IMG/VR virus record: IMGVR_UViG_3300050011_000393
Coordinates: 1-64,000 of that record
Origin: a virus
Length of the DNA stretch: 64,000 nt
Direction: 5' to 3' (one strand)
Shown here piece by piece: positions 4,977 through 28,555 of this stretch (within the stretch, counting starts at the first letter, position 1; every line of letters starts with the position of its first letter). The notes below the pieces were generated by a model. The model saw only the letters and a program-made list of their open reading frames with translations, was not told the origin of the DNA and searched no databases. Position numbers and translations under genes: made by a program.

Positions 4977-5549
4977 ATGAGCACACCGCAATCGCCATTT
5001 CAAGACCACGCATCGCCGATTCTCCAGGGCGAGCCCACAATAAATGATCAGCAACGGTCAGAACTCTGGGATACCTTCCACCAATCCAAGGACCCGAACG
5101 AGTTGGTGCAGAAACTCACGCCGCTGGCTATTCCTGACGATTTGAAGCACAAACTGTTCCAGGCTAAGCAGACATCTATGCCCGCGCCGCCCCCCGTCGA
5201 CAAAGTGACCGAAGCTGTGCAAAAAATGGTCGCGCTGGACCCCAAAGTGTTGGACGTGGCCGAAGCGCATCCGAACCTTCTGAAGGCATTTACGACCGCT
5301 GCCACAACCGAGCCTAAAGCCCCCGCCGAGCCCGCTGCAGCATCCGCGCCAGCAGGGAAGGGTAAGACGGCATCCGCAGCGCCAAAGACGCCCCTGACCC
5401 CTAGGGCCGACGGACAGCCCCATTTCCCGCCTATCCCTGACGGTCACCACCGCGTTTTGAGCAGCAACGGCGGCGTTTATGACGTGCCGCAAGAAAATAT
5501 CGACAAGGCCCGCGAAGCGGACCCGAACCTGCACGTACTGAACCCGTAA
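4977..5549 (+). CDS. Hypothetical Pro/Ala-rich protein
   Basis: 190 residues, abutting the upstream phosphatase gene. Helical charged N-terminal half, Pro/Ala/Lys linker near residues 105-140, and a short C-terminal motif (HHRVLSSNGGVYDVPQENID) of a kind that recurs in phage virion proteins. It directly precedes the giant polyvalent protein gene, so co-packaging in the capsid is possible. No enzymatic motif was recognised. Confidence 0.65.
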   Translation: MSTPQSPFQDHASPILQGEPTINDQQRSELWDTFHQSKDPNELVQKLTPLAIPDDLKHKLFQAKQTSMPAPPPVDKVTEAVQKMVALDPKVLDVAEAHPNLLKAFTTAATTEPKAPAEPAAASAPAGKGKTASAAPKTPLTPRADGQPHFPPIPDGHHRVLSSNGGVYDVPQENIDKAREADPNLHVLNP

Positions 5550-5562
5550 TTCGGAGACCCTT

Positions 5563-8500
5563 GTGGCTGACGAGACGACCCAGACCCCTGCGCCTGCACC
5601 AGTACCCGACTCGATTCCGATTGACTTGGAGCCGTCTGCTGCTCCTGCATCTATTCCTATCGACTTGAACCCAACATACGACCCGACTCAGGACAAGCGC
5701 GCGCCGTTCCTCAAGACGAATCTAAATCCAACGGGCCCAACCATCCAAGAGGCGCATAAACCTCTGACACAACGCGTCAAAGAAGCAGTCACAGAAAACA
5801 TTCCTGAATTTTCGCAGAGGACTGTCAACGACCCGAAGTACGGCACAAAATCTTTCCTGCCTGACTCAGATGTAATGACTCAGCAGGAACGGAAAGACCT
5901 GCCCGTTGTCGCGGGAGCCATGGACGTGGCCAGTGAGCTGGCTTCCCCTGGGACTATTGGCACCATCGCTGCGACGGCGGGCTTAGGGGAGGCTCCTGCG
6001 ATAGTTTCGAAGGTCGCGTCTGCGTTATTCGCTGGCCAAATTGCCAAATCCGTTTACGACCAGTACCCGGCGCTGCAGGCGGCCGTCGACAAGGCCCAGC
6101 ACGCGAAGTCTCAGCAAGAACACGATGATGCTTTTGCGGATGCGCAGAAAATCCTGACGCACATGGGCGTCGACACCGCGTTCGGGTTGCTGGCGGCGAA
6201 GCACGGCGCGGAGGGCGCGAAAGATTTGCTGGATGCAACCACGGGCAGCGGAGTGCCTGATGAAGCGTCTACCCTGAAAGCGAAGTATCAAGAGAACCAA
6301 ATTGCACCCCGCGCGCCAGAACCGGAAGAGAAACCCGCTGCGCCTGAAGACGTTCATCCCGAGATGAATCGGCAGACGGTCAAGGAACTGCAGCATCTGG
6401 GGTATTCAACGCAACACATTACCAATTTCAATATCACTGAAATTCGCGACATTCTCAAAAATCAAACACCTGCATCTGAATATAAATTTTCCACGACCGA
6501 CCGTCGGTGGAATCCTGATCTACCAAATCCGGCAACAGCCAAGCCCGCTCCTGAGCCAGATAAGTTCGCCGACCAAGGCGGCAAGCTAGTTGGGCCTCAA
6601 CCAGAAACTGAAGCAGCCGCCGAAAAGCCTTCTCAGACCGCCGAAAACGCCACGGAAACCGCAGACCCCGTCGAAGACCTTATCATGTCCGACAAGATTC
6701 AAGGTAAGAAAGTGAAGGGTGCGACACCTAAGGTTGAGCCGACCGAATTGGCGCGCAGCGCGGGGCCGACCCCGAGCGGATTGATTGAGCGTACAACAGG
6801 CGACCCGAAGTCTGACGCCGCCATCAAGGCGGGAGGTGCGGTTCCCGCAGGCACAATGCTTGGGCTAGTCCAGTTTCACGACCCGAAAACAGGCAGCACC
6901 TTGGCGCTAAAGCCCGAGGCGGTCACGCCCGAAGCGGTCCAGCAACATCTCGCCGCGTCCCGCAAAGCCTTTGGCCTGACTCCGGAGCCTGATGCGCTGG
7001 CGGGAGTCGGCGGTAAGTTTGTAGGCCAGCAGCCTGCTGCGGCACCAGCACCTTATCATCCTGACTTACAAAAGGTTATTGATGATAACGGCGGTACGCA
7101 CTCAAGCGCAGCCAAAGCGGTTTCGCCAGACGAAGGGTCTTTTATTACGCCTGACGGAAAATTTGTTAGCGTAAAAGGGACCCATGATATTGCTATTGGC
7201 CGCGCGAATCCAAAAGACCGACCAGAAGGCCGCATCGATAATCGCCCTAGTTTTTTAGATGATACTGGCGCGATACGTACCAGAATGCGTGTTACCAAGG
7301 CGGGTAGTTCATTAAGTGTGACTGTCCCTAAAAACGGGATTTCTCCTGAACAATTAGATGCGTTGCGGCGGTCAGTCCAAGCTATGGGGCCGTACGGGAA
7401 TTTGGTAATAGAACGTTCAGATATCAGCCGAAATAACAGGGACACCGCCAGCACAACGAAAGAGCAGGTAAAGCCCTACCAAGTTGAGGACGCCCTCCGC
7501 GAAATCGGCGCGCATCCCGAGCAGCAAGATATTCTATCCAAAGAACTCCATACTCCGCACAAACAAACATATGGGATGGAAGTCACAGACGCTGAAGGCA
7601 AAGTTCAGAATGTGCCAATCGAAGCGCATTCTGCCAAGCAGGCGCTCAACACCATCGTAAAGAAATTCCCAGACGCGCATCGCTGGCGTTTGGCGACCGC
7701 GCCTGAAGAAAAGGCACCCTCAACTGACTACTCTGTACCTGCAGGCAAGATACAGAAAATGAAAGAGTCGGCAGGACGGTCTGAGATTCACACTATCCGT
7801 CACGAATTAGGACATATATTCGCAGGGGCGGCTGTGGGCATGAAAACTAACGGGATGCTTAGTTCTTCGCACCCCGCTATGCCGAGCGATGCGCGCGCTG
7901 CGGTTGCTTGGAGTTCTGACGGTTTGTATGAGAAGGGGCGCATCAAACCCGACAAAAGACTGGCGGTAATTCAGGCGTCTCTGGGCGGCATCGCCGCCGA
8001 CAAAGTGTTCAATGATACCCCGCGTTCCGCGAATCATAATTTCGATATCCGCGCTGGCGGGGATGGAACAAAAGCCTACGAACTGTTGCGCGACGCAGGG
8101 TATAATCATGCGGACGCGATGGAAAAAATGCACGAGCTAATTGATACAGAAGTCGAACGTCTGAGTCATCCAGCAATCATGTCCGTTATACATGAGAACG
8201 CAGGTGTGCGCGAGCCAGGTTTGTCGCGGCAGTATCACTACAGTCCCGAGCGGCTAAATTCAATCGTGGCGGAAGCCAATAGGAGAATGACCGATGAAAA
8301 ATATACCGAAAAGCGTGACAACGGAGCAGCTAATGGGGCAGTTAACCAAGGACGTGAAGGCGATGTCGCCCGAACAGAAAGCGGAGTTTCGCCTGCAGTT
8401 GGAAGCGAGCCTAAAAAAGAAGGGGTAATCAATGACAACGGAGCAACTGGGTCAGGCGGTTCTGAAATCAGTCCAGCAGATGTCGCCAACGGAAAAAGCG

Positions 8501-20926: not shown

Positions 20927-23293
20927 TTGTTCCAACGAAACCCAGACCAGCACCAAGTTATCTGCGACCACTTGGGGCCGCGTTCAGTTGTGGCTGGGCC
21001 AGGTAGCGGCAAGAGCAGTACGATGGTTGAATTTATTAAAGATTTGATCTACAAACATGGCGTATCTCCTTCCGAAATTCGGGCCGTCACCTTCTCGAAA
21101 GAGATGGCCACGGTACTGGAAAAGAAAATCAAAATCCCAGGCATTGCGTCCACGTTCCACAGTTTGGGCTACCTGATCTGTTCCGAGACAGAACGCAAGC
21201 CCGTTGAGCCTGAGCTGCGGTATCGGTTGATGTGCCAGCTATGCAAGAAGTGGGGACTGGATTACAAAGAACTGGATCACTTCATCGCCAAAATGCGCCG
21301 CAGTAACATCACCCCGACCGAATGCATTGAAAGTGGCGAGTATGATTATGGATATGCCAGCGCGTATGTGACATACGAAAATTCCCGCGCCGAACAAGGC
21401 TGGATGGACTTTGATTGTCAGCCCCCTGAAACGCAAGTTACCATGGCGAATGGTGAAACAAAGCGGATGGACGCTCTGCAAGTTGGAGACTCCGTGCTTT
21501 CGTGGAATCGAAGAAATCAGGCGTTTAGGAGTCGCCGTGTTTCTGGTATTTCTAGACACGCACACTATGGAAAACTCGTTACGGTGCGGTGCGGAAACAA
21601 AAAGACCCGAGCCACCCGCAATCACTGGTTCTGGGTAAAATTCAACGAAGCTGCTAAAAATCAGTACGCAGTTTACCTGATGTGGCGAGAGGGCTTTGGA
21701 TTTCGCGTCGGGCAGTGTAAATTCTTTTCTCGCGGATACTCAAACTGGACTACTCGGATGAAACATCAAGTTGCCGACAAAATGTGGGTCTTGAGTGTTA
21801 CTACAGATTATTACGAGGCGTTGACCCGCGAAGCGGAGGTCTCAGTTAAATATGGCATCCCTCAGACGGTATTTGTGGGGGCGCGCGGGTACCCGACGTC
21901 TGAGGCTATTAATCGCATATTTCTGGCAGCCGATACACAAAACGGAATACGCTGTCTCGCGGACTATGCCTTGCAGTGGGACCGACCGCTTATAGCGAAG
22001 CAAGCAAAAATGCAGCAATGGACTCGCAAAAAAGGCGGGTTTATAAAGGTCTCTGCGTGCAATCTTCTCCCGCATATTATGTCCCTGCCGGACGACGGAG
22101 CCATTACTGAGATTCAACGAGTTCCGTACACGGGCGATGTATACGGACTAAGCGTTGATATTGACCACACCTATGTGGCCGATGGACTTATTACAGGGAA
22201 CTCAATGCTGGCCGACGCCGTCCAGCTACTGGAAAAGCCCGATGTGCGCGCTAGATGGCAGCCCAAGTTCCTAGTCGTCGACGAAGCCCAGGATACTGAC
22301 GACTGCCAATGGCGTATGATGCAGTTAATGGCGGCGCAACACAACAACATCACGGTTGTCGGCGATCCCAACCAAGCTATCTACGGTTTCCGTGGCGCGA
22401 AGCCCGAAAACATCACCAACTTCAATCAGTGGTTTCCTGGCGGCCGAAAATACTACCTCGGCAAGAACTACCGCTCGACGCAGACCATCGTGAAGTTCGT
22501 GCGAGAGAACGCGCCTGAGGATACCCCAAAGGAATTGTTAGACCGCATGGTCGCGGCGCGTGCAGAGAAGGGCGCACCTATCGGATTGAAAATGTACTGG
22601 ACCGACGACGCGGAAGCTGAGTCCGCCCTGGCGCTGGCGAAGAAAGACCCGCTCAATTCAATTATTCTTGCCCGCACAAACCGCATGGTGGGGCTCTTAG
22701 AGCGGCTGTGCAATCGCCATAAGGTCCGTTACCATCTGATGGGTAAAACTGGGTTCTGGAAACAAAATGAAATCCGTAAAGCTATTGAAGCGATGAAAGA
22801 TTACCCGAACCTGTCGACCGAAGCGGCGTTCAACCTGGCGTTGCCTGACCTCGAAGCCAAGTATGCTGTCGCAGATCGGACAGAGCGAGACAACGACGCT
22901 CTGGATAATTTGAAAGTGATTCGCCTAATCGGGAAAGACTTTCGAACTGCGCGGGAATTTACGATCTATGGCAACAAGATGATGCATCGGCGCAATGACC
23001 CGAAGGGTGTGACTATCTCAACCGTGCATCAATCCAAGGGCGGTGAGTGGAAGAACGTGTTCATCATCGGCGCGAACGCCAAGGGGTTCCCGCACACGAA
23101 GGGCGACCCTAAAGAAGAGAAGCGCATATACTTCGTGGCCATCAGCAGGGCCATTGATAATCTGCGCATCTCTTTCTCCGGTACTCCTAGTCCGTACTTG
23201 CGAAAATATCTCACAGATGAAGTGCTCGATAAATTACGCGAGCACGCCGAAGAGGTGGACCACCTGCAGGAACAGCATAAACTTTTCGTTTAA
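20927..23293 (+). CDS. UvrD/PcrA-type helicase interrupted by an intein
   Basis: 788 residues as translated, about 526 after splicing. Walker A GPGSGKSS (24-31), then FSKEMATVLEKK; after the intein FLVVDEAQDTDDCQW (motif II), VVGDPNQAIYGFRGA (motif III), NYRSTQTIV (IV), TISTVHQSKGGEW (V) and YFVAISRA (VI). A superfamily 1A 3'-5' DNA helicase for replication or recombination. TTG 20927 follows GTGAGG. The intein interrupts the DFD-[S]-ML segment before motif II, so splicing is needed for activity. The adjacent Cas4-like nuclease could be its partner. Confidence 0.9.
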   Translation: MFQRNPDQHQVICDHLGPRSVVAGPGSGKSSTMVEFIKDLIYKHGVSPSEIRAVTFSKEMATVLEKKIKIPGIASTFHSLGYLICSETERKPVEPELRYRLMCQLCKKWGLDYKELDHFIAKMRRSNITPTECIESGEYDYGYASAYVTYENSRAEQGWMDFDCQPPETQVTMANGETKRMDALQVGDSVLSWNRRNQAFRSRRVSGISRHAHYGKLVTVRCGNKKTRATRNHWFWVKFNEAAKNQYAVYLMWREGFGFRVGQCKFFSRGYSNWTTRMKHQVADKMWVLSVTTDYYEALTREAEVSVKYGIPQTVFVGARGYPTSEAINRIFLAADTQNGIRCLADYALQWDRPLIAKQAKMQQWTRKKGGFIKVSACNLLPHIMSLPDDGAITEIQRVPYTGDVYGLSVDIDHTYVADGLITGNSMLADAVQLLEKPDVRARWQPKFLVVDEAQDTDDCQWRMMQLMAAQHNNITVVGDPNQAIYGFRGAKPENITNFNQWFPGGRKYYLGKNYRSTQTIVKFVRENAPEDTPKELLDRMVAARAEKGAPIGLKMYWTDDAEAESALALAKKDPLNSIILARTNRMVGLLERLCNRHKVRYHLMGKTGFWKQNEIRKAIEAMKDYPNLSTEAAFNLALPDLEAKYAVADRTERDNDALDNLKVIRLIGKDFRTAREFTIYGNKMMHRRNDPKGVTISTVHQSKGGEWKNVFIIGANAKGFPHTKGDPKEEKRIYFVAISRAIDNLRISFSGTPSPYLRKYLTDEVLDKLREHAEEVDHLQEQHKLFV
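21416..22201 (+). other. In-frame intein (262 residues) in the helicase gene
   Basis: Residues 164-425 of the helicase frame. The N-terminus is Cys (CQPPETQVTMANGETKRMDA), with the block-A pattern followed by LQVGDSVLSW; block B is likely KKTRATRNHWFWVK. The C-terminus reads DIDHTYVADGLITGN with Ser as the first residue after it (HN-type end with G before N). No LAGLIDADG pair is visible; the middle (WREGFGFRVG...EALTREAEVSVKYGIP) may be a degenerate or different endonuclease module. Extein residues GWMDFD and SMLADAV join to a normal UvrD sequence. Confidence 0.88.
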
Positions 23294-25513: not shown

Positions 25514-27766
25514 ATGCCAAAAGATAAATTTTCTGATGAAGATTTATCGCGGTGGAAGCGTGAAATAAATCCTGCTCCCATTATCAGCTCGCGTGTAAAG
25601 CTGAGCCGCGATAACTCGGAATGGCTGGGCCTATGCCCATTTCATCCCGAAAAAACTCCGTCGTTCAAAGTGTGGAAACTCGACGACGGCGTATGGGGAT
25701 TCAAGTGCTTTGGGTGTCCGACGGGGGACCCCAAGAAGCCGTCCTCGGGGAACGTATTTCAATTCGTGCAGAGGTTCGACAAGATCCCATTCTCCGCAGC
25801 CGTGGAGAAGGTACTATTCGAAGCGGGCGTTGCTGGCTGGGCGGACGGGACCCCCCAGTCCGATCCATCCATGCCCGAAAAAGTGCATCGAGAGATGGTC
25901 ACGTTTCCGATTGCACAATATACTCCCACTGAAAAAGCCCTCGCTGAATCTGCGGCCGGAAAAGCGTGGCTCGCGGCGCGCGGCATCAGCATGGAGACCG
26001 CGCGGGCGTTCCATATCGGGTTCGTTCAAGACGCTACGGTCACGTGCGGCACAAGCAACCCTTGGGCGAAACTGGGATGGGTCTTGTTTCCAACCCTGTC
26101 TGCAGACGGTCACTCTGTAATTTCTGTAAAGTACCGCAGCATTGCAGGAAAGAAAAAGAAAATAGACGGCAAAAACATCGGCGGAATCTACCGCGCGCAA
26201 GACACAGTCACCGTGCTGTTTAATCTGCAGGAAATCAAAGCCGCCGACGATATCTGGGTAGTCGAAGGTGAACCCGACACCCTAGTGCTGGCGCAGGCGG
26301 GCTGCCTGGCCGTCGGATATCCTATGGCGGGATACCAGCCCACCGAGGAAGAATGCGATGCACTGTCTACCGCCAAGCGTCGATTCCTTGCGGGAGATAG
26401 CGATGCCCCGGGCGTCAAGGCGATGGCCCAACTGAAAGACAGGGTGCGCGGCGCGACGTTCCTCATCAAGTGGCCGAACAATCGCAAAGACGCGAACGAC
26501 GTACTGACCAACGAATGCGGCAACGACACGGGCAAGTTTAAGGTCCTGCTCGAAGAACTGAAAGAGCGCGCGACCCAGACAGAAAGTATTTCCATTGTCC
26601 GCCGAGCCTGCGATATCGTTCCTAAACAGATTCGGTGGCTGTGGCAGGAAAAAATCCCTTACGGTAAGATCACACTGTTCGCGGGGAATCCAGACAACGG
26701 AAAATCGCTGGCGAGCACGAAAGTCGCAGCAGCCACAAGCACGGGGGACCCTTTCGGGGAAGAGAACTTCGTCCGCAAACCTGCCGACGTCTTGATGCTT
26801 ATCGGGGAAGACGACGCGGAGGACACTGCAGTGCCGCGTCTCATGGCGGCGCAAGCGGATTTGAGTCGCATTCATTTTCTGGAATCAGTGCGCCCTATTG
26901 CATCTGAAGACCGCGAAGTCCGCTTGGATATGGATATCGCCGCGATTGAGCGCAAGCTGGAAGAGATCCCTGATGCGCGTCTGTTGATTATCGACCCTAT
27001 CAGCAATTACCTAGGCGATGTCAGCATGGTGGCGGAACAAGAGGTGCGCTCGATTCTAATTCCTTTGAAGCGCCTGGCTGAAAAATTCAACATCGCCATC
27101 GTGATCGTCATGCACTTAAACAAGAAAAATGATATGGATGCGATCTCCCGTGTTGGCGGCGCGATGGCTTTTATCGGCGTGGCTCGATGTTCGTGGCTTT
27201 TCGCGCGCAACGTGCAAGAAGAGAAACCGGAAGGGGAAGACGTTACCGCCCCTGTCGAAAAAAAGCCCGATACCTTCTCCATGCTTCGAATTAAGAACAA
27301 CCTGGTCTCCTCCAGCCGCGCAGGCATGGCCTACAGTGTCTTGGTCAGGCCGATTGAAATCGAGGGGGATAAAATCATGACCCCTTATGTCGTGTTCGGG
27401 AAAACTATCGAAGGGAACGCTGACGATGCGCTAAACCGCAACAGTCGCGGACAGAAGAATGACCCTTCTGCTCCTCCGCGCGCCGTGGGACGCCCGAACG
27501 ATAAGCTGCAGGCCGCAGTACGATGGCTGGAAAACGCGCTACAAGACAACCAGCCGCAACGCACTAAAGTTTTAAGGGAGAATGCCAAGGGGGAGGCGAA
27601 CATCGCATCAGATACCTTGGATCGCGCCTTTACGACCATTGGCGCGAAGTCGTTGAAGATTGCAGGTCATTGGAACTGGAAGTGGACTCCTCTGAGTGAA
27701 CCTGATGAGAACGACGGTGAAACAGCCCAGCAAAGTATGTTGATTCAGGTCGAGGGGGCGGAATGA
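25514..27766 (+). CDS. Primase-helicase fusion
   Basis: 750 residues. N-terminal CHC2-type zinc finger (CPFHPEKTPSFKV...CFGCPTG, residues about 41-75), a Toprim-like region (DIWVVEGEPDTLVLA, then FLAGDSDAPG, about 240-300), and a RecA-like ATPase starting at FAGNPDNGKSLAS (Walker A near 391) with LLIIDPISNYLGD as Walker B. The order matches bifunctional phage primase-helicases with RepA-like ATPases; it would unwind DNA and lay primers. A winged-helix-like C-terminus follows. The gene runs directly into a repeat cluster that may be the origin. Confidence 0.9.
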   Translation: MPKDKFSDEDLSRWKREINPAPIISSRVKLSRDNSEWLGLCPFHPEKTPSFKVWKLDDGVWGFKCFGCPTGDPKKPSSGNVFQFVQRFDKIPFSAAVEKVLFEAGVAGWADGTPQSDPSMPEKVHREMVTFPIAQYTPTEKALAESAAGKAWLAARGISMETARAFHIGFVQDATVTCGTSNPWAKLGWVLFPTLSADGHSVISVKYRSIAGKKKKIDGKNIGGIYRAQDTVTVLFNLQEIKAADDIWVVEGEPDTLVLAQAGCLAVGYPMAGYQPTEEECDALSTAKRRFLAGDSDAPGVKAMAQLKDRVRGATFLIKWPNNRKDANDVLTNECGNDTGKFKVLLEELKERATQTESISIVRRACDIVPKQIRWLWQEKIPYGKITLFAGNPDNGKSLASTKVAAATSTGDPFGEENFVRKPADVLMLIGEDDAEDTAVPRLMAAQADLSRIHFLESVRPIASEDREVRLDMDIAAIERKLEEIPDARLLIIDPISNYLGDVSMVAEQEVRSILIPLKRLAEKFNIAIVIVMHLNKKNDMDAISRVGGAMAFIGVARCSWLFARNVQEEKPEGEDVTAPVEKKPDTFSMLRIKNNLVSSSRAGMAYSVLVRPIEIEGDKIMTPYVVFGKTIEGNADDALNRNSRGQKNDPSAPPRAVGRPNDKLQAAVRWLENALQDNQPQRTKVLRENAKGEANIASDTLDRAFTTIGAKSLKIAGHWNWKWTPLSEPDENDGETAQQSMLIQVEGAE

Positions 27767-27999
27767 CCACCCCCACGAGTGAGAATTATACACTTGATCC
27801 CGAGATGGCATCACGGGTAAAATTAGTATCTCGGGTAGAAGTAGGGAATATATCCCGAGATGAAGATGCAGAAGGACTTAGAGGGAAAGAGTTAAAAAAA
27901 CTTTCAGGAAGGTCTTTAGAATCAGTGACTGATTTCATCTCGGGTATATTTACCGAGATCTCACACTTGGCTGGAGTCAGGGGATTTTCCCCGAGATGA
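27763..27999 (+). CDS. Small ORF spanning the repeat cluster
   Basis: 78 codons; ATG overlaps the primase stop (ATGA), which favours translation. The peptide is charged (SRDEDAEGLRGKELKKLSGR) and unlike anything I recognise. Base composition is more AT-rich than the neighbours, and the frame runs through six CCCGAGAT-type repeats in both orientations, so the DNA may serve as a binding-site array with the ORF secondary. A same-length frame exists on the other strand. Confidence 0.4.
   Translation: MTTPTSENYTLDPEMASRVKLVSRVEVGNISRDEDAEGLRGKELKKLSGRSLESVTDFISGIFTEISHLAGVRGFSPR
27798..27998. repeat. Six CCCGAGAT-type repeats, candidate replication origin
   Basis: Consensus TCCCGAGATG. Forward copies at 27798-27807, 27853-27862, 27952-27959 (ACCGAGAT) and 27990-27998; reverse copies at 27828-27835 and 27936-27944. 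Local sequence is AT-rich with an A-run at 27893-27900. Position directly after the primase-helicase gene is typical for an iteron-type origin or a repressor site array. Confidence 0.6.
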
Positions 28000-28060
28000 C
28001 TTTGTTGAAGTCCATGGGCCAATGGAACTGGATTTTGAATCCGAAACCGACGGAGGACAG

Positions 28061-28555
28061 ATGAACCTGATGAAAGAGTTGCCCAGAATCGCCGCCCGCG
28101 TACTCAAGAACACCCGAGGCGTCTATCCCGAGCTGAAAGCGCGCCTAGGTCTGGTTTCAGAAGCGTATGGAGCCAACCGCGTAGTTAGAGATTTTGAAGA
28201 ATGGTGCGCCACAGTGCTTGAGACGCCGCGCTACCCTATTTCCGAATATCTGAAGGTGGTCGACTCCCGTCTAGGTTCCGCCCCCGAGGAGCCGAAACTG
28301 GATATCAAGAATCCCGTGGTTGGGGAACTGGTCTCTCTCACTTATGAGATGACCGGGGTCCTTCCATCCGCCCTGTCGGTCGCGGACTTGCTGAACCAAT
28401 ACCCCGCCGAGGAAGTGCGCGCGGCTCTGGTTGAATTCGCCGAGGGGTTGACGGAGCGCGAACTGAAAACTTCGATCAAGATGTTTTTCGCAAACGGGGG
28501 AAGCGGAGCCTCGGCGGTTATTCTTGCCCGCAGACGGAGATCAAATGCCAAATAA
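28061..28555 (+). CDS. Hypothetical helical protein
   Basis: 164 residues from ATG 28061, chosen for CGGAGGACAG immediately upstream; an in-frame ATG at 28022 lacks such a site. Mostly helical, charged, ending in a basic tail (ARRRRSNAK). The pattern YPISEYLKVVDSRLG...LLNQYPAEEVRAALVEF recalls small replication-associated or DNA-binding proteins. It follows the candidate origin. No family recognised. Confidence 0.65.
   Translation: MNLMKELPRIAARVLKNTRGVYPELKARLGLVSEAYGANRVVRDFEEWCATVLETPRYPISEYLKVVDSRLGSAPEEPKLDIKNPVVGELVSLTYEMTGVLPSALSVADLLNQYPAEEVRAALVEFAEGLTERELKTSIKMFFANGGSGASAVILARRRRSNAK

Follow-up and report, generated by a model that had tools for sequence, protein, structure and literature searches.

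The array of short direct and inverted repeats that directly follows the primase-helicase gene of an environmental phage is probably the phage's replication origin, or one of several, and the repeats would be read by the helicase's own C-terminal winged helix. This reading is built on sequence comparison, structure prediction and analogy with known replication systems. The phage is known from environmental DNA, and the window, i.e. the whole stretch analysed, covers positions 1-64,000 (64,000 nucleotides) of a 96,667-base IMG/VR virus record. A candidate origin had been proposed at this place in an earlier note made from the sequence alone, and it is retained here as the best-supported reading; relatives carry arrays in the corresponding position, with units that differ from one relative to the next.

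The repeat array and its interval

The features of the region are as follows, in coordinates of the window.

25514-27766, + strand: primase-helicase gene, with DnaG-type zinc ribbon, Toprim, AAA_25 (RecA-fold) helicase and predicted C-terminal winged helix (Pfam Zn_ribbon_DnaG, Toprim_2, AAA_25)
27488-27700, + strand: predicted winged-helix coding part, proposed reader of the repeats (AlphaFold2 mean pLDDT 87.9)
27763-27999, + strand: small ORF of 78 aa, with an ATGA overlap with the helicase gene; probably no gene
27767-28021, no strand: repeat-array interval, candidate replication origin, 255 bp (9-mer test and whole-record ranking)
27769-27786, + strand: conserved left-edge motif ACCCCCACGAGTGAGAAT (17/18 in the window; 18/18 in L010 at 5188; 16/18 in L037 at 3287)
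27794-27823, + strand: weak sigma-70-like promoter match TTGATC-18-TAAAAT over the first repeats (9/12; shuffles mean 0.4)
27799-27806, + strand: CCCGAGAT copy, exact
27810-27817, - strand: ATCACGGG, weak copy
27828-27835, - strand: ATCTCGGG copy, exact
27854-27861, + strand: CCCGAGAT copy, exact
27880-27906, no strand: central AT-rich partial dyad AGAGGGAAAGAGTTAAAAAAACTTTCA between the two repeat groups, with a close match in L037
27937-27944, - strand: ATCTCGGG copy, exact, in a head-to-head pair with the copy at 27952
27952-27959, + strand: ACCGAGAT copy, one mismatch
27990-27997, + strand: CCCGAGAT copy, exact
28061-28555, + strand: neighbouring gene (MNLMKELPRIAARVLKN...), conserved in the phage group and serving as synteny anchor

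The 8-bp core CCCGAGAT is present in six copies within 27,799-27,997, five of them exact and one with a mismatch (27799+, 27828-, 27854+, 27937-, 27952+ with the mismatch, 27990+). Re-scanning with this core thus gives the same six repeats, four direct and two inverted, as had been reported earlier, and a seventh, weaker inverted copy lies beside them at 27810. As the 10-mer TCCCGAGATG occurs exactly only twice in the array (27798 and 27853), the true unit is nearer to (T)CCCGAGAT / ATCTCGGGTA. The position of the primase-helicase gene directly before the array and the ATGA overlap with the small ORF, both noted previously, are real.

The array is significant. The top 9-mer of the 255-bp interval reaches 6 copies. 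In 100 dinucleotide shuffles the mean is 2.4 and the maximum 4, and none of 149 other intervals sampled across the 64 kb reaches 6 copies in the same test. The array is also the top-ranked repeat cluster of the whole 96,667-bp record. The surroundings had been described as AT-rich, which holds in a mild form, the GC of the interval being 0.45. The six sites are of mixed orientation, with start-to-start distances of 29, 26, 83, 15 and 38, and the regular, helically phased direct-repeat spacing typical of iteron plasmid origins is absent among them. Three sites and the weak one lie to the left of the central dyad and three to the right; the L037 counterpart of this dyad, AGAGAGAAAGAGTTAAGAACTCTTTCA, forms the top local alignment between the window and L037 intervals. 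The predicted DNA folding of the interval beats shuffles (z -3.06), as is expected because of the inverted copies. No intrinsic terminator is found, Rfam gives no match across 27,500-28,300, and blastn detects no DNA similarity to known phages.

Just behind the array, the stretch 28003-28073 is similar to the helicase gene's 3' end (GQWNWIL against GHWNWKW, with TGAACCTGATGA occurring twice); the local score is 41 against a shuffle maximum of 32. The stretch is possibly the scar of a swap of C-terminus and array.

A reading in which the small ORF 27763-27999 is what functions and the repeats are a by-product of its codons is very hard to sustain. The ORF does overlap the helicase gene by ATGA, and its 78 codons remain open, as happens in about 1% of shuffles in that frame; however, another ORF of 78 aa is present on the opposite strand of the array, and neither PHROG nor Pfam gives a match to the small ORF. 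The forward copies sit in its codon phases 0, 1 and 2, so that the repeats encode no repeated peptide. Moreover, in L001, which carries the nearest helicase relative (59%), the corresponding overlapping start runs into a stop after 8 codons; the DNA of the interval is still alignable to the window despite this broken ORF, with a changed unit, ATGTCGGG for ATCTCGGG. No corresponding ORF is listed in L010 and none is at the same place in L037. The comparison of repeat and peptide conservation, suggested as a check in the earlier note, has this outcome: arrays recur with different, self-consistent units and the small ORF is not conserved. This favours the repeats being DNA-level signals, not coding sequence.

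Arrays behind AAA_25 helicase genes of relatives

Relatives were collected by protein searches and not via repeats. Their helicase halves fall into at least two types, A (window, L001, L010, L037 and L040) and B (L002, L004, L017 and L019). Arrays are present in the same place in L001, L002, L004, L017, L019 and L037, with a unit own to each, the units being ATGTCGGG, CATCTGAC, CTTYTGGAA, ACTTCTGGACA, ACTTCTGCC and TTYTGAGAC. In type A, the L037 array consists of 5 copies of CATCTGAC. Among the type B arrays, that of L002 contains 5 copies of CTTTTGGAA, that of L004 ACTTCTGGACA/ACATTTGGACA, that of L017 9 copies of ACTTTTGCC/ACTTCTGCC, and that of L019 9 copies of TTTTGAGAC/TTCTGAGAC, located beyond an inserted TnpA/TnpB-like pair. 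An AT-rich TGATTCTATTATATAT is common to L002, L004 and L017, and is reversed in L019. Throughout the full records of L004 and L017, every exact match to the own unit falls inside the array. L010 and L040 have a homologous helicase, yet no significant array right behind the gene in the 9-mer test, and no such array is found in the distant cultured relatives OkiRoe and Squash (mycobacteriophage and Microbacterium phage, 27-31% identity).

The association was quantified by calling an array when z > 4 within 250 bp behind a gene. Arrays are found behind 10 of 23 sampled AAA_25 helicase loci and behind 1 of the 114 other genes tested in these loci (Fisher p about 2e-8, computed before the following correction). 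The single control hit is L039, and as L039 and L037 are one and the same helicase locus, the controls are effectively 0/113. The 10 include two favourable choices, the window as the discovery case and L019, whose interval was chosen on the far side of the transposon; leaving these out, 8 of 21 AAA_25 loci have an array. Positive loci include L015, L021 from a Gammaproteobacteria MAG, and the Planctomycetaceae MAG loci L024 and L052, and L001 is just under the cut (z 3.9). In three gut phage-labelled contigs (MT839393, MT839352 and MT838296; L067, L069 and L071), TTGCA-like short repeats are seen by eye behind the AAA_25 helicase genes; the 9-mer test does not call them, or does so weakly (MT839393, 3/100 shuffles).

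Several side observations were made on these loci. The helicases of the three gut contigs have a tail of the same W-x-W type. L014 contains dense short repeats (GATGTCCCG / TGCCCG-like) at 5350-5430, from about 350 bp behind its AAA_25 helicase gene and outside the tested interval. The Planctomycetaceae MAG G003, the genome of L024, has an unusual abundance of AAA_25, with 34 helicase-profile matches, many of them on different contigs.

TnpA/TnpB-like genes (IS200/IS605-type, by eye) are inserted between the helicase gene and the array in L019 (5131-6575) and in L020. In L001 (8481-8891), L037 (3457-4014) and L040 (3484-3864), GIY-YIG-like or HNH-like genes lie beside the array or where one would normally be, which makes the interval look like a favoured insertion site. 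These HNH-like or GIY-YIG-like genes, together with the helicase-end-like stretch just behind the array of the window, could speak for another kind of cis-acting site, serving packaging, recombination or partition, or being the target or scar of a mobile element. Such a site would not be expected, however, to show the tight association with AAA_25 helicase genes across unrelated genomes, nor a unit changing together with the C-terminal domain of the helicase, and we consider it quite improbable.

The two halves of the primase-helicase can be told apart in their relation to the array. The window and L002 both have a DnaG-type primase half, different helicase types and different arrays. Conversely, L002 and L004 have helicase halves that are 78% identical and arrays that are alike; their primases differ, the primase half of L004 matching the NrS-1 type (Pfam). 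By sequence comparison, the array is found to track the AAA_25 helicase half, not the primase half. As to the primase halves themselves, an NrS-1/primpol-like one is present in L004 (1865-3769, Pfam) and similar ones, by eye, in L010, L017, L019 and L037; the window, L001, L002 and L040 have the DnaG type. The same comparisons indicate that primase halves are swapped while helicase halves are kept, i.e. active module shuffling.

L003 (by Pfam) and L042 (by sequence) have a DnaB-like helicase and no match to the helicase profile. Both have a separate small gene matching the PHROG 'replication initiation protein', the L042 match being weak (E 0.0011). A clear array, TTGGTTTGG x5, comes right after the initiator-like gene of L042; after that of L003, there is only a weaker, non-significant TTAGG-like stretch.

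The C-terminal domain and known systems

The helicase half of the window protein resembles RSF1010 RepA (1g8y), which is among the best folds (TM by target 0.67). In the AlphaFold2 model, the C-terminal domain has the secondary-structure order H-H-H-E-E, and most of its best PDB neighbours are winged-helix proteins, though their E-values are weak (0.15 or higher). This domain is more diverged than the core: type B helicases are 84-91% identical in the core and 34-51% in the C-terminal domain, and type A helicases 54-68% and 29-51%, a weaker contrast than in type B. The window and L001 both have DTLDRA in the predicted third helix, and their units differ by one base. In relatives, the change of unit is apparently matched to the changing helicase tail. 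The virus record also encodes a polymerase, RecA and SSB. Elsewhere in the window, a UvrD-like helicase gene (20927-23293) has an intein-like insert, with a Hint module match under the curated cut-off at residues 161-247.

The array could alternatively be an operator, at which a DNA-binding protein, either the primase-helicase as an autoregulator or another regulator, controls downstream transcription, without any origin. Sites used in that way would leave much the same traces as an origin, a promoter-like match does overlie the first repeats, the opposed copy pairs resemble operator dyads, and the L037 array holds, by eye, a promoter-like TTGACT-18-TATAAT. Nevertheless, when primases are swapped, the array stays with the helicase half, including the C-terminal domain, and the repeat unit varies among relatives as that domain does. 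In addition, an adjacent conserved regulator gene is absent, and six to nine copies with an AT-rich stretch exceed the needs of a simple operator. An operator is therefore judged unlikely, though less so than the other alternatives, and an origin read by the helicase tail remains our preferred reading.

Known systems provide precedents for such an arrangement. SaPI Rep and SCCmec Cch2 are AAA+ helicases, another superfamily. Their C-terminal domain recognises iterons directly downstream of their own gene, the SCCmec Cch2 origin being putative (PMC7581432). The phage shares with them the short repeats that immediately follow the helicase gene and the C-terminal DNA-binding domain on the helicase, here as a predicted structure only. 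They are encoded by mobile islands in which primase or polymerase is separate, whereas here a RecA-fold AAA_25 helicase is fused to a primase in a virus record. Membership of the SaPI Rep / SCC Cch family proper is ruled out, the helicase here being of the AAA_25 / RecA fold.

The helicase of phage P4 alpha belongs to SF3. The alpha protein is both primase and helicase, and the repeats at its origin are bound by its winged helix (PMC4234260). As in alpha, one protein combines a helicase with a primase of the Toprim type and with a winged helix, which is predicted here. In contrast to alpha, the phage has a RecA-fold helicase of RSF1010 RepA-like type, and its array follows immediately after the gene; the comparison with P4 is one of protein domains and layout. 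The P4 alpha family itself is ruled out by AAA_25 and the lack of an SF3 match in Pfam.

In RSF1010, which also has RepB' and oriV, iterons are bound by RepC, separate from the RepA helicase (PMC4234260). The phage resembles it in having a RecA-fold, RepA-type helicase with an iteron origin, which is a candidate here, and the fold agrees with RSF1010 RepA-like membership (AAA_25, and RSF1010 RepA among the best folds); in contrast to the separate RepC, the reading domain here appears fused to the helicase. Finally, pRN1 ORF904 is a primase-helicase whose C-terminal winged helix is proposed to act on a stem-loop behind its own gene (PMC4234260). Both systems thus combine a primase-helicase carrying a C-terminal winged helix with a candidate DNA target just downstream, the differences being that pRN1 has a large stem-loop and an SF3 helicase and that the phage has a repeat array. 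By analogy, the system appears to work like SaPI/Cch2 and P4 alpha, using the helicase type of RSF1010. In the open-access literature, the SaPI/Cch2 and pRN1/P4 precedents were found, but nothing that describes such arrays with AAA_25 helicases.

A candidate self-specific initiation module

Under the preferred reading, the repeats of the array would be the sites bound by the C-terminal winged helix of the upstream primase-helicase. Several subunits would bind the direct and inverted copies, and the RecA-type helicase ring could be assembled on the AT-rich centre. The DNA would then be opened, and the polymerase of the phage would start from the first primers, laid by the fused primase. Together, gene and array would form a single self-specific module, exchangeable between phages, in which domain and sites change together. 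GC skew had also been suggested in the earlier note as a check, and it does not point to the array: over the whole record, the cumulative minimum is at 6,690 and there is no switch at 27.8 kb. The skew appears to follow gene direction and is thus of no help with the origin.

A broader possibility, which we advance tentatively, is that primase-helicases combining an AAA_25 (RepA-like) helicase with a C-terminal winged helix form a class of self-specific initiators that is widespread and so far undescribed. In this class, the winged helix would co-diversify with the downstream array as an exchangeable specificity module, giving related phages the same enzyme but different origin 'passwords', which would perhaps help them to avoid competition or hijacking. 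If this is right, the origin of these phages would be readable from sequence, behind the AAA_25 helicase gene, and the diverged C-terminal domains with their matching arrays would be a natural set for deciphering a winged-helix recognition code. The origin compatibility of related phages would become directly testable, and RecA-type replicative helicases may carry their own origin recognition, without a separate initiator like RepC of RSF1010.
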